Source: Sphingorhabdus sp. SMR4y (GTDB taxonomy: Bacteria; Pseudomonadota; Alphaproteobacteria; Sphingomonadales; Sphingomonadaceae). From it: a stretch of 64,000 nt of DNA. Below the pieces are notes generated by a model. It saw only the letters and a program-made list of their open reading frames with translations. It made no database searches and was not told the DNA's origin. Where the stretch lies: contig NZ_CP022336.1 of assembly GCF_002218195.1 (NCBI RefSeq), forward strand, positions 3,281,001 through 3,345,000, given 5' to 3'. This document shows positions 26,071-59,459 of the stretch, piece by piece. Numbering within the stretch: the first letter of the stretch is position 1; every line of letters starts with the position of its first letter. The position numbers were made by a program, and so were the translations under genes.

Positions 26071-26098
26071 CTGGATTCCCGCCTTCGCGGGAATGACA
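26071..26098. repeat. REP element, family GGATTCCCGCC, outer copy
   Basis: CTGGATTCCCGCC-TTC-GCGGGAATGACA, with an internal hairpin ATTCCCGC/GCGGGAAT. It lies in opposite orientation to the element at 26123-26151, forming a REPIN-like pair downstream of the GIY-YIG gene. Confidence 0.85.
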
Positions 26099-26122
26099 CA
26101 GCTGTTAGGGACTAGAGCTCTC

Positions 26123-26508
26123 TTGTCATCCCCGCGCAGGCGGGGATCCAGTTGGCGCTATCTTTCGGCCCTATCATCCGTTGAGCGTGTCAAACAAGTC
26201 ATCCCAGTCCGGATTGCTCTCCTCGATCAGCCGCAATTTCCATCCTCGGTTCCATTTCTTGAGCGCCTTTTCACGGGCGATGGCATCGCGGACATCGGTA
26301 AACGGTTCGATATGGACCAGCCTCGTCACGCGATATTTCTTGGTAAATTCTGAAGCTTTGCCGTTTCGATGGGCGAAGATGCGGGCGGCGAGATTGCTGG
26401 TGACACCGATGTAGAGTGTCCCGTTCCGTTGGCTGGCGAGAATATAGACGTAATAGGTGCGGGGCATGGCCTGCTCTAGCTGGATTCCCGCCTTCGCGGG
26501 AATGACAA
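26123..26508 (-). mobile_element. Candidate minimal GIY-YIG element A bounded by REP-type inverted repeats
   Basis: Left end 26123-26151 (begins TTGTCATCCCCGCG, ends GGGGATCCAG) and right end 26480-26508 (begins CTGGATTCCCGCC, ends GGGAATGACAA) are inverted repeats of 29 bases with 26 identical positions; each can also fold as a hairpin. Between them lies only the 97-codon GIY-YIG gene, with 22 and 12 bases to spare. The ends belong to a dispersed REP family whose extra copy is at 26071. Calling it mobile is inference: no target duplication or second copy of the whole unit is visible here. Confidence 0.5.
26174..26467 (-). CDS. Stand-alone GIY-YIG endonuclease-family protein A
   Basis: A 97-residue single-domain GIY-YIG protein (YhbQ/UPF0213-like). 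The two strands carry YVYIL and LYIG (GIY and YIG equivalents), the catalytic arginine is in NLAARI, and the metal-binding glutamate in AREKALKKWNR. It ends a few residues after the domain, with no DNA-binding extension. The start ATG is 12 bases from a REP-type inverted repeat and the stop 22 bases from the other, so its promoter must lie in or beyond the repeat. It has the same design as the gene at 58692. Confidence 0.93.
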   Translation of the reverse strand: MPRTYYVYILASQRNGTLYIGVTSNLAARIFAHRNGKASEFTKKYRVTRLVHIEPFTDVRDAIAREKALKKWNRGWKLRLIEESNPDWDDLFDTLNG

Positions 26509-53230: not shown

Positions 53231-53323
53231 TCGTCACCCCGGACTTGATCCGGGGTCCAGAGCGGCAATGCGCTTACTGTGGTGCCTGCCGCTCTGGGTC
53301 CTGAAACAAGTTCAGGATGACGA
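53231..53323. repeat. Repeat with 54-base core, copy B
   Basis: The left part holds a perfect hairpin ACCCCGGA-CTTGA-TCCGGGGT (53236-53256), then the 54-base core shared exactly with copy A (53257-53310), then TTCAGGATGACGA, matching the family at 48312-48338. The ends TCGTCA and TGACGA are inverted to each other, as in a REPIN. Confidence 0.85.
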
Positions 53324-53350
53324 ATACCTCCTTAACGAACTCACAGGTGG

Positions 53351-53731
53351 CTAGGCGTAACTGACCACTTCCCACTCGATGCCGTTCCAGTCGAAGAAAT
53401 AGAAGCGGCGGCCGGGATCGTAGTCGGCATGGCTGAACGGTTCGAGACCGGCAGCGATGACTTTCGCTTCCACCGCATCGAGATCATCGACGGTCACACC
53501 GATATGGTTCAGCGGCTCGCCCTTGTTGAAGGTGGGATCGGCCGCCCGCACATCCGGGTGGGTGTAGAGCGCGATATATTGATCCTCGGTACCGACATGG
53601 ATCGTGTTGCCCCCGGCCATTGCCGGTCCTTCCCACCGGACTTGCCAGCCGAAAAGATCGTGCAGCAGATCGGCGCTCCGTTGCGGATCGGTGACCGTGA
53701 TATTGGCGTGTTCCAGTTTTCCTTTGGTCAT
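53351..53731 (-). CDS. VOC (glyoxalase-like) protein 2
   Basis: A 126-residue vicinal oxygen chelate protein, with both beta-alpha-beta-beta-beta modules: the metal-side start KLEHANITVTDPQRSADLLHDLFGW and NHIGVTVDDLDAVEAKVI, ending YFFDWNGIEWEVV. Metal-ligand positions His in LEHANI, His in NHIGV and Glu in EWEV are kept, so it may be an active metalloenzyme. Overlaps VOC protein 1 upstream by 4 bases; both are likely read from the SoxR-type promoter. Confidence 0.88.
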   Translation of the reverse strand: MTKGKLEHANITVTDPQRSADLLHDLFGWQVRWEGPAMAGGNTIHVGTEDQYIALYTHPDVRAADPTFNKGEPLNHIGVTVDDLDAVEAKVIAAGLEPFSHADYDPGRRFYFFDWNGIEWEVVSYA

Positions 53732-54129
53732 TTTTCATTTCCTTTCTCACTAATTGAATTGTTGATCCGCCACGGCGGGAAGCGGCGGTTCGTGCCGCCA
53801 TGGAACAGGCAGAGCGGGTTCCCGGCTGGGTCGCGGAGCCGTGCTTCGCGCCAGCCCCAGCTCTGGTCTGTTGGCTGTGTTTCGAAGGCGATGCCGGCGG
53901 ATTGCAGCTCGGCGACGGTTTCGTCGATATGATCGCATTCGAAATAGATGATGGTCGCCGGTTCGCCGACTGTCTCGACCGCGTGAAGCGAGAAGGTCTC
54001 GCCGCTGGCGGTCTCGAACCGTGCATATCGGGGCGGGGAGTCGACGATCTGGACGAGACCGAATTGGCGGTAAAATGCCACCGACCGGGCGTAATCGACG
54101 CATCCTACCGTGACCTGATTGAGTTTCAT
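53728..54129 (-). CDS. VOC (glyoxalase-like) protein 1
   Basis: A 133-residue VOC protein starting at ATG 54129 (MKLNQVTVGCVDYARSVAFY). Its second half has YFECDHIDETVAELQSAGI and LRDPAGNPLCLFH. Where VOC enzymes carry His/Glu metal ligands it has Gln in LNQVTV, so it may bind substrate without a metal, as fosmidomycin- or bleomycin-binding relatives do. The start lies 107 bases downstream of a SoxR box-containing promoter, with VOC protein 2 coupled behind it. Confidence 0.87.
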   Translation of the reverse strand: MKLNQVTVGCVDYARSVAFYRQFGLVQIVDSPPRYARFETASGETFSLHAVETVGEPATIIYFECDHIDETVAELQSAGIAFETQPTDQSWGWREARLRDPAGNPLCLFHGGTNRRFPPWRINNSISEKGNEK

Positions 54130-54235
54130 TTTCTGTCTTCCTCGCGTTGTTGACGGCGCTTGAATGGAAGAATTGGAAGCATGTTTGCCGCTTTTCCGGC
54201 GGCCTTTCGAGTCCGCCAATTCTCCATGCTTGCGA

Positions 54236-58526: not shown

Positions 58527-58556
58527 TCGGCTAAGCCGGACTTTTAGGCTGGTGTC

Positions 58557-58583
58557 GGGGTTCGACAGGCTCACCCCTAACGG
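58557..58583. repeat. REP element, family TTCGACAGGCTC, outer left copy
   Basis: GGGGTTCGACAGGCTC followed by ACCCCTAACGG. It is inverted relative to the element at 58644, with which it forms a REPIN-like pair upstream of the second GIY-YIG gene. Confidence 0.85.
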
Positions 58584-58643
58584 ATGTCGGGTTGTCAGAG
58601 CGGCCATCTTGAGAACTTGATAGAAGCGGTCAATCGGCGTTTT

Positions 58644-59011
58644 CCGTTAGCCCTGAGCTTGTCGAAGGGCGTCTATCGATTAATAACAGTCATGGCCTTC
58701 TACGCCTACATATTGAAATGTTCAGACCACAGTTTCTACACCGGTCATACCGACAATCTGGAGCAACGCGTTGCCCAGCATCAGAGCGGTATCTTTACCG
58801 GATATACGTATAAAAGACGCCCCGTGGAGCTGGTCTGGTCCGAGAATTTCCCGACCCGTTACGAGGCTTTGGAGGCCGAGAAACGGATCAAGGGCTGGAC
58901 GAGAGCCAAAAAACAGGCGCTGATCGATGGTGACTGGGATTTGCTCTGTGCGCTTGCCAGAAACCGCAGCGATAGATGATAGGCGTCCTTCGACAGGCTC
59001 AGGACTGACGG
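58644..59011 (+). mobile_element. Candidate minimal GIY-YIG element B bounded by REP-type inverted repeats
   Basis: Left end 58644-58671 (begins CCGTTAGCCCTGAGC, ends GAAGGGCG) and right end 58984-59011 (begins CGTCCTTCGACAGG, ends CTGACGG) are inverted repeats, 24 of 28 positions alike. Between them is only the 95-codon GIY-YIG gene, 20 bases from the left end and 4 from the right. Further elements of the same repeat family lie outside at 58557, 59035 and 59138. Same design as element A but a different repeat family. Mobility is inferred. Confidence 0.5.
58692..58979 (+). CDS. Stand-alone GIY-YIG endonuclease-family protein B
   Basis: A 95-residue single-domain GIY-YIG protein. YAYIL and FYTG stand for GIY and YIG (Thr replacing Ile), the catalytic arginine is in NLEQRV, and the glutamate in EAEKRIKGW. 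ATG 58692 gives the standard start; the longer frame upstream reads through the repeat. It has about the same length and layout as protein A at 26174 but clearly different sequence, so the two genes are not recent copies of each other. Confidence 0.93.
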   Translation: MAFYAYILKCSDHSFYTGHTDNLEQRVAQHQSGIFTGYTYKRRPVELVWSENFPTRYEALEAEKRIKGWTRAKKQALIDGDWDLLCALARNRSDR

Positions 59012-59034: not shown

Positions 59035-59063
59035 CCGTTAGCCCTGAGCCTGTCGAAGGGCGC
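59035..59063. repeat. REP element, family TTCGACAGGCTC, outer right copy 1
   Basis: CCGTTAGCCCTGAGC followed by CTGTCGAAGGGCGC. It is inverted to the right end of element B (58984-59011), so a REPIN-like pair lies after the GIY-YIG gene as well. Confidence 0.85.
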
Positions 59064-59096: not shown

Positions 59097-59459
59097 TTAT
59101 TTCGGCCGACCGGGAACCGTATTGACAGACCAGAGGCGGGGTTCGACAGGCTCACCCCTGACGGCAGAGGTCGGCACGGTTTTCAAATAGCTTTGGATGT
59201 GGGCCGCGGTCATCGTGGCTGCTTCAGAACCACCATCCGGCATACCCATATAGTTTTGCTCAATATCAACCAAATGATCGACAACTTCTTCTTGAGGTGC
59301 GTTATGCCAAATCATGCCTGCCGCTCGGAGCAGATAGGTATCATATTCGTCTTCGCAATCTTCCCGATGGTCCTTGAGTCCAATCGGATCCCAAAACGCC
59401 CACCCAATTTCTCTCAACTGGGAGATTTTTATCTTAGGTCTGGCATTTCGCAAGGACAC
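59097..59459 (-). CDS. Small conserved protein with a REP-encoded C-terminus
   Basis: A 120-residue cytoplasmic protein of unknown function. The first ~95 residues are acidic and helical (REIGWAFWDPIGLKDHRED, DEYDTYLLRAAGMIWHNAP) and resemble short hypothetical or immunity-like proteins. The last ~22 residues (SAVRGEPVEPRLW and onward) are translated from a REP element at 59138-59164, which overlaps the end of the gene and has apparently replaced or extended the original tail. It is divergent from nothing nearby and lies 3 bases upstream of the smc stop codon, with smc on the same strand before it. Confidence 0.7.
   Translation of the reverse strand: MSLRNARPKIKISQLREIGWAFWDPIGLKDHREDCEDEYDTYLLRAAGMIWHNAPQEEVVDHLVDIEQNYMGMPDGGSEAATMTAAHIQSYLKTVPTSAVRGEPVEPRLWSVNTVPGRPK
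59138..59164. repeat. REP element inside a coding 3' end, family TTCGACAGGCTC
   Basis: GGGGTTCGACAGGCTC followed by ACCCCTGACGG. The element lies inside the reading frame of the small conserved gene and encodes the residues RGEPVEP on the minus strand. Confidence 0.85.

Follow-up and report, generated by a model that had tools for sequence, protein, structure and literature searches.

What is a small nuclease gene doing between two inverted copies of a palindromic repeat? In the window, the whole stretch of 64,000 nucleotides from Sphingorhabdus sp. SMR4y that was analysed, a single GIY-YIG gene with inverted hairpins on both sides occupies positions 58644-59011 (element B, 368 bp), and a second such gene lies at 26071-26507 (element A). 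We consider it probable that element B is a cognate nuclease-hairpin pair resembling Ssn, a system described below, in which the hairpins have multiplied and the gene has kept a fixed locus.

Direct reading of the sequence confirmed the preliminary description of element B with respect to its length, its gene of 95 codons, its stop codon and its inverted ends: the two arms are identical at 24 of 28 positions, a repeat finder lengthened them to 34 nt at 85%, and four bases separate the stop codon (58977-58979) from the right arm. The gene is intergenic, with a MarR-family gene on one side and smc (PF02463) on the other, and thus does not lie in an intron, an intein or a target gene, as a homing endonuclease gene would. 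The two hairpins belong to a cluster of five copies with alternating orientation (Table 1), and these are all the perfect copies of the TTCGACARGCTCA core in the window; with at most one mismatch the core matches seven times in the window, compared with 0.41 matches expected. In the complete genome (3.48 Mb) the core is present in 130 copies, divided 68 to 62 between the two strands, compared with one copy of the control, the pattern read backwards. The hairpin is composed of a CGTT tag, a variable stem of 5 bp and a loop of 11 nt, and has no CCA tail.

Table 1. Positions of the genes and hairpin copies of elements A and B in the window
Feature	Positions	Strand	Remarks
Element A outer hairpin, CGTC-1 type	26071..26098	+	repeat search
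Element A hairpin, 3' side of gene	26123..26151	-	repeat search, flank comparison
Element A GIY-YIG gene, 97 codons	26174..26467	-	PF01541 match
Element A hairpin, 5' side of gene	26480..26507	+	repeat search, flank comparison
Outer left hairpin copy, TTCGACARGCTCA family	58556..58583	+	stem GGGG/CCCC; sequence reading, repeat search
Element B left hairpin, tag CCGTTAG outside	58644..58671	-	5-bp stem, 11-nt loop; z -1.35 vs shuffles
Element B GIY-YIG nuclease gene, clade 1a	58692..58979	+	95 codons plus stop; PF01541 1.1e-18
Element B right hairpin, tag outside	58984..59011	+	intended stem not best fold by energy alone
Further hairpin copy, outer right	59035..59062	-	sequence reading, repeat search
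Further hairpin copy, outer right, stem GGGG/CCCC	59137..59164	+	sequence reading, repeat search

The hairpin of element A fits CGTC-1. The repeats of the two elements had been described beforehand as unrelated and their proteins as clearly different, and both statements hold: the hairpins belong to two different families, and the proteins are 37% identical over 87 columns. The two cases in 64 kb had also been held to argue against coincidence; in the genus, hairpin-flanked genes make up 15 locus clusters, elements A and B among them. The genome contains five PF01541 loci, four of which encode small proteins, all four amid palindromic repeats; the fifth is a 648-aa frame of UvrC size. A relative of element B at 1.96 Mb (L004) has a frame without the start of the domain, and its hairpins are of the same family as those of element B, with the tag CCGTTCG rather than CCGTTAG.

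The open reading frame of element B, read from the ATG at 58692, matches the Pfam family GIY-YIG (PF01541, E = 1.1e-18) and no other Pfam family at E <= 0.001; a longer open frame begins at 58584, and the relatives favour the ATG at 58692 as start. Residues Y6, Y16, G18, R26, H30 and E63 are conserved in 117-119 of the 119 hairpin-flanked relatives, and with them the predicted active site is kept. For clade 1a, to which the gene belongs, dN/dS has a median of 0.08 (11 of 21 pairs computable, synonymous sites near saturation), and by this estimate the gene is under purifying selection. The predicted model of the protein (mean pLDDT 92.6) matches best the UPF0213 structures 1ZG2 and 1YWL, followed by the branched-DNA nuclease Slx1 at an E value above 0.001. 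By its PF01541 match, its kept residues and its 1ZG2/1YWL-like fold the protein belongs to the single-domain UPF0213-like GIY-YIG superfamily; the UPF0213 proteins (structures 1ZG2 and 1YWL; YazA and YhbQ) are its nearest solved sequences and folds. In clade 1c (L006, L007, L008, L010, L014, L036; neighbours taken by us for yqeY and dnaG) the 3' end of the open reading frame contains the right-hand hairpins, and the tail of the protein is there encoded by repeat sequence.

A rival explanation takes the gene for an ordinary one of the host, the hairpins beside it being there by chance or as terminators and co-inherited with it at a conserved place. How often such genes are flanked was determined in 32 genomes of the genus, in which 85 small GIY-YIG loci were parsed (UvrC-length matches and four weak partial matches left out) and 78 tested, four with proteins under 60 aa and three with short flanks being excluded; a locus was counted as flanked when it had an inverted flank pair scoring above the best of 50 shuffles. 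Outside a lineage of 80-82 aa, 64 of 72 single-domain genes were flanked, 54 of the 72 with a score of 35 or more; within the 80-82-aa lineage the same test found none of six genes flanked. Against chance speaks that random placements of a 288-bp pseudo-gene in this one window were flanked in only 11 of 285 cases. Four of these 285 placements scored 35 or more, all around one place; those starting at 53538-53653 share an inverted pair of score 38 (in a section of about 53290-54190) that is neither element A nor element B.

For clade-1 relatives in named genomes elsewhere, taken as the best 80 of 545 listed (L154 was dropped because of a short flank), 55 of 59 loci with at most 150 aa were flanked and 1 of 20 with longer open frames. 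Six of the longer frames were scanned, and five contained an extra domain, a SpoU methylase in three, a pseudouridine synthase and a JAB domain in one each. In these five (L121, L132, L144, L173, L176) the clade-1 GIY-YIG domain is fused in frame with the extra domain and there is no flanking pair; the fused proteins are possibly a domesticated branch. In Sphingomonas parapaucimobilis (L210) the annotation places the gene between nrdR and a gene for an RNA methyltransferase, and here there is a modest flanking pair. Of 18 loci picked by hand from the matches in the plasmid collection 11 were flanked; among these 18, no flanking pair was found at YazA (Bacillus, Listeria), at the YhbQ-like locus (Enterobacter) and at three others. 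The YazA and YhbQ-like loci thereby differ from element B, and the existence of such relatives favours an ordinary host gene. A Photobacterium relative of the element A protein likewise had no flanking pair. Two further surroundings may be mentioned: on a Planktothrix plasmid (L208) the neighbours of a single-domain GIY-YIG gene are a type IIL restriction-modification gene and DISARM drmA, and on plasmid AZO_p3 of Azospirillum lipoferum (L201) sufB and sufC enclose a GIY-YIG gene that has CGTC-type hairpins.

The hairpin type follows the nuclease lineage. The preliminary description had suggested that each nuclease lineage may be matched to its own palindrome, as RAYTs are to their REPs, and this is supported. 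Protein and hairpin distances correlate, both for 15 representatives of the locus clusters in the genus (Mantel r = 0.365, p = 0.0002) and for 70 loci (r = 0.66, p = 0.0001), and the loop changes once in the tree given below; the match is, however, not strictly one to one, because CGTC-1-like hairpins flank at least three lineages (L003 type, L022, L049). One nuclease between repeats of several families, which had been named as the pattern speaking against a match, was not seen: no lineage had clearly unrelated hairpins, a few loci being unclassifiable. Since the hairpin type goes with the nuclease lineage, the data suggest that each enzyme recognises its own repeat.

In the tree of 76 clade-1 proteins, which has few columns, many open forks, a long Flavobacterium branch and seven rows with no scored loop, a single change divides loop A (TGAGCYTGTCGAA) from loop B (TCGAGCGAAGTCGA). 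The loop-B clade of 13 rows has an SH-aLRT value of 97; twelve rows were scored as B and the thirteenth was left unscored by the pattern. In the protein, positions 14, 38, 64 and 68 distinguish the two loop groups. Loop A accompanies clade-1 relatives in Flavobacterium, Endozoicomonas and Vineibacter, and also in several assemblies of Chloroflexota, which are metagenome bins and could contain stray contigs. The same loop goes with relatives in Chloroflexota, Bacteroidota and Gammaproteobacteria. The core was present in 14 of 16 genomes outside the genus, with 73 copies in Flavobacterium, 235 in Endozoicomonas, 48 in SAR202 and 232 in Vineibacter. One Chloroflexota assembly (L150) has a single core copy and its gene is nonetheless flanked; a Dehalococcoidia genome has 26 copies and a different flanking loop of its own; and no core copy was found in Rhodanobacter, with a different flanking loop, and in Dependentiae, with no flanking pair. 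The closest named relative among those listed is an uncultured Sphingorhabdus assembly that has both the gene and the smc end.

With the best 80 of the 545 listed relatives, 37 loci did not have their longest neighbouring ORF in common with another. The same loop accompanies one clade at a large number of loci, other phyla included, and for this reason we have rejected the reading of passenger hairpins or terminators. That clades 1a, 1b and 1c have one locus each, flanks and gene being inherited together, would agree with an ordinary host gene, which we nevertheless hold to be highly improbable.

The inverted ends could also be the terminal repeats of a transposon of 368 bp that moves gene and ends together. 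In the genus, clades 1a, 1b and 1c each form one flank-matched locus cluster, of 7, 5 and 6 loci respectively. The same holds for most of the remaining lineages; the clustering was by single linkage, in which the largest cluster mixes several lineages and the MPFQP type occurs in more than one cluster. Because clades 1a-1c each keep one locus, the gene has not been seen hopping. Clade 1a adjoins smc (PF02463) in 7 of the 32 genomes (six among 30 loci compared, and G020 by coordinates), in G013 in inverted orientation. At the junction of smc with a gene that we take to be soxR, the full element is present in G013 and G007, a lone hairpin in G030 and a degenerate one in G002, with which both loss and gain of the element are compatible. 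The inversion at smc and the lone hairpins fit a transposon; the single locus per clade, on which ground we have rejected the movement of the whole element, does not, nor does the finding that the two gene-bearing loci of the hairpin family in this genome belong to different clades and that no empty site was found among the loci examined. A transposon of this kind is in our opinion very improbable.

In being fixed the gene resembles a RAYT, and in being scattered the repeats resemble REPs. It could thus be asked whether a RAYT, a Y1 transposase, moves the repeats and the GIY-YIG gene is only a passenger. A Y1 match was found in 13 of the 32 genomes of the genus; the other 19, several of them rich in hairpins, gave none. 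There was no Y1 match, and no RAYT was found, in the present genome despite its 130 hairpins, and G006, G007, G013, G016, G019 and G030, with 18 to 82 copies, are likewise without a Y1 match. A RAYT as mover was rejected on account of the present genome; it is contradicted unless the RAYT was lost after the spread, and we give it next to no credence.

What has multiplied can be read from the copies themselves. Of the 104 copies in this genome fitting a longer pattern 100 were listed, and in 82 of these all four stem pairs tested were Watson-Crick, whereas shuffled arms gave 25 on average and 38 at most; the loop was fixed by the pattern, and loop conservation is thus outside this test. Judged from these sequences the stems covary. 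The case for the single hairpins rests on this covariation, because energy alone does not set them apart (weak folding, z -0.2 to -1.4). The tag follows the nuclease paralogue: in the five genomes that have clade 1a but not 1b, TAACGG accounts for 98 of 179 copies; in the two that have an intact 1b but not 1a, for 2 of 88; and in G008, whose 1b gene is truncated, for 13 of 48.

Many copies form doublets with the tags outside and no gene between them. The count of such gene-less doublets, which the preliminary description had called for, gave 26 for this genome, taking up 52 of its 100 listed copies, compared with two gene-bearing loci, one of them damaged at the start of the gene; in G006 it gave 18 (36 copies) among 64. 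Of 51 doublet matches at the loci examined, 30 are 71 or 72 bp long (range 61 to 95); the search pattern fixed their ends, and one locus entered the count twice (L013 and L101). Whole doublets are mostly 71-72 bp, with 44-45 from start to start. By eye, the spacers of 17 or 18 nt and the outer flanking bases are unrelated between sites, orthologous sites excepted, and the doublets are for this reason not recent copies of one another. A search with joined flanks for empty sites of doublets gave 0 spanning matches among the loci examined. When four doublets were folded as single strands, each gave a single long hairpin (z -5.3 to -10.2). Both hairpins of a doublet share the stem in only 2 of 26 cases here and 2 of 18 in G006, fewer than the 5.5 (P 0.047) and 5.7 (P 0.018), respectively, predicted by re-pairing. 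Stems that covary internally, in hairpins whose partners are unlike them, point to the single hairpin as the unit that may be recognised. Heterodimers are mentioned for most families of REPs, and called unexplained, in an earlier comparison (PMC3733652).

Does the number of hairpins depend on the gene? In the genus, uncorrected, the 15 genomes with a clade-1 gene have a median of 48 copies and the 17 without it a median of 1 (p = 9e-5), where truncated or interrupted 1b genes (G000, G007, G008) were scored as present and the interrupted gene of G003 (L065), which has a separate locus, went under clade 1b. Restriction to 1a/1b gave p = 0.006, and subtraction of nine flanking copies p = 0.03. 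Corrected for kinship with an smc tree of 30 genomes, there were four independent pairs, on average 1.6 for and 0 against, significance being out of reach. In G030 no clade-1 gene was detected in the presence of 42 copies, its near relatives G031, G023 and G024 having 0 to 7, and this genome counts against a strict dependence of the repeat on the nuclease. No clade-1 gene was detected in G016 (82 copies, 87% complete), G015 (24 copies, 67%) and G012 (16 copies, 82%); G021 (73% complete) has the gene and 3 copies. Three other hairpin families have fewer copies, are found also in genomes without the gene, and show a link of gene and copies that weakens or vanishes after subtraction of the flanking copies; for the GTGCTCCGGG hairpin the excess was gone once two flanking copies had been subtracted (p = 0.09).

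A paper of 2025 reportedly describes Ssn, a group of GIY-YIG enzymes that are specific for a repeated Neisseria sequence, at which they cleave single-stranded DNA, and that have many homologues with sequences of their own; Ssn is also said to be linked to natural transformation in Neisseria. The likeness to element B is a single-domain GIY-YIG enzyme tied to a repeated palindrome; a repeat at the gene and across the genome, as in Ssn-type systems, is present for element B. The element A protein is 60% identical, and the element B protein 36%, to a gonococcal protein in an array of dRS3 with 11 repeats within 2.27 kb; this protein may be Ssn. The hairpin of element B differs from dRS3 by its 5-bp variable stem, its 11-nt loop and its CGTT tag. 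If Ssn is as described, the pairing principle is already known and element B is a sphingomonad branch of it with a distinct hairpin class. The hairpins could then mark self DNA or control exchange, the enzyme cutting incoming or displaced single strands at them, as would hold for Ssn; the gonococcal relative of the element A protein in the dRS3 array is in favour of this, but no finding here points specifically to uptake, and we regard the proposal as rather unlikely.

REPs fall into a GTAG and a CGTC superfamily, the latter, with Neisseria dRS3 as CGTC-1, being defined by a CGTC tag, a stem of 8-9 bp, a loop of 4-5 nt and a CCA tail, and CGTC repeats seem to be without a dedicated transposase (PMC3733652). 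Measured by this definition, element A and several hairpins of the genus fit by eye (CGTC or TGTC tag, 8-bp stem, 4-nt loop, CCA tail), dimers being common, whereas element B with its CGTT tag, 5 bp, 11 nt and absent CCA tail falls outside. With RAYTs (REPtrons) and REPINs element B shares a gene flanked by its own inverted repeats and a 4-nt tag plus hairpin (PMC2817692, PMC3116915, PMC8266576), and its gene-less inverted doublets share with REPINs a preferred spacer length, a variable spacer sequence and the fold into one long hairpin; in REPINs, too, the spacer is constrained mainly in length and hairpin capacity (PMC3116915). It differs in having a GIY-YIG enzyme instead of a Y1 HUH transposase and CGTT instead of GTAG as tag, in doublets shorter than the GI REPIN of the same paper, and in that the hairpins of one doublet tend to have different stems. 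RAYTs read both tag and hairpin on single-stranded DNA (PMC8266576), and this serves here as an analogy.

On our preferred reading, that of a cognate pair, the GIY-YIG enzyme would recognise the single-stranded stem-loop through its loop (TTCGACARGCTCA) and the 4-nt tag (CGTT), and would probably cut at or beside the hairpin when this becomes single-stranded during replication, repair or DNA uptake. The gene would stay between two hairpins at a fixed, vertically inherited locus, the multiplying part would be the hairpins, many of them arranged as REPIN-like doublets that have their tags outside and no gene, and the enzyme may have a role in spreading or keeping them. What was observed is the architecture, the copy number, the covarying stems, the match of hairpin type and nuclease lineage, the purifying selection and the kept active site; binding, cleavage and strand preference are predictions. 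Counting against this reading are the copies in G030, G016, G015 and G012 with no gene detected, the weaker link in the three other hairpin families, the L150 and Dehalococcoidia genomes, the unflanked Photobacterium relative, the lack of a strict one-to-one match, the absence of an empty site among the loci examined and the weak folding of single hairpins. A search by title and start of abstract, with most subscription journals outside its reach, found among the papers listed none linking GIY-YIG enzymes to REP, RAYT, REPIN, palindromic or CGTC repeats; a link of these enzymes to CGTC-type REPs and REPIN-like doublets was not met within the literature searched. CGTC-type REPs have been described as seemingly without such an enzyme of their own (PMC3733652), and the GIY-YIG enzyme is a candidate for this role.

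An extension of the cognate-pair explanation, of which we are less sure, is that small GIY-YIG nucleases are dedicated, lineage-specific dispersers of CGTC/CGTT-tagged REPs, as RAYTs are for GTAG ones. The correspondence of hairpin and nuclease, the REPIN-like doublets in unrelated surroundings, the higher uncorrected copy number in genomes with a clade-1 gene and the lack of a Y1 match in this genome speak for it. GIY-YIG enzymes hydrolyse DNA; we know of none that joins DNA strands, and this counts against dispersal, as do the doublets, which are not recent copies of each other, the absence of an insertion event among the loci examined, and G030 with its many copies and no gene detected. Dispersal is thus a tentative proposal, possible rather than probable.

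With 15 locus clusters in one genus, several of them of CGTC type, a candidate enzyme can be named for these repeats, natural pairs together with a natural loop switch are available for mapping specificity, and where a large class of bacterial repeats comes from becomes a question for ordinary biochemistry. If the enzymes cut single strands at the hairpins, the natural pairs would be a ready set of sequence-specific single-strand nucleases. If dispersal is true, bacteria would have gained REPIN-like repeats by a second, non-HUH route as well, and numerous pairs of nuclease and hairpin would have evolved in parallel in several phyla.
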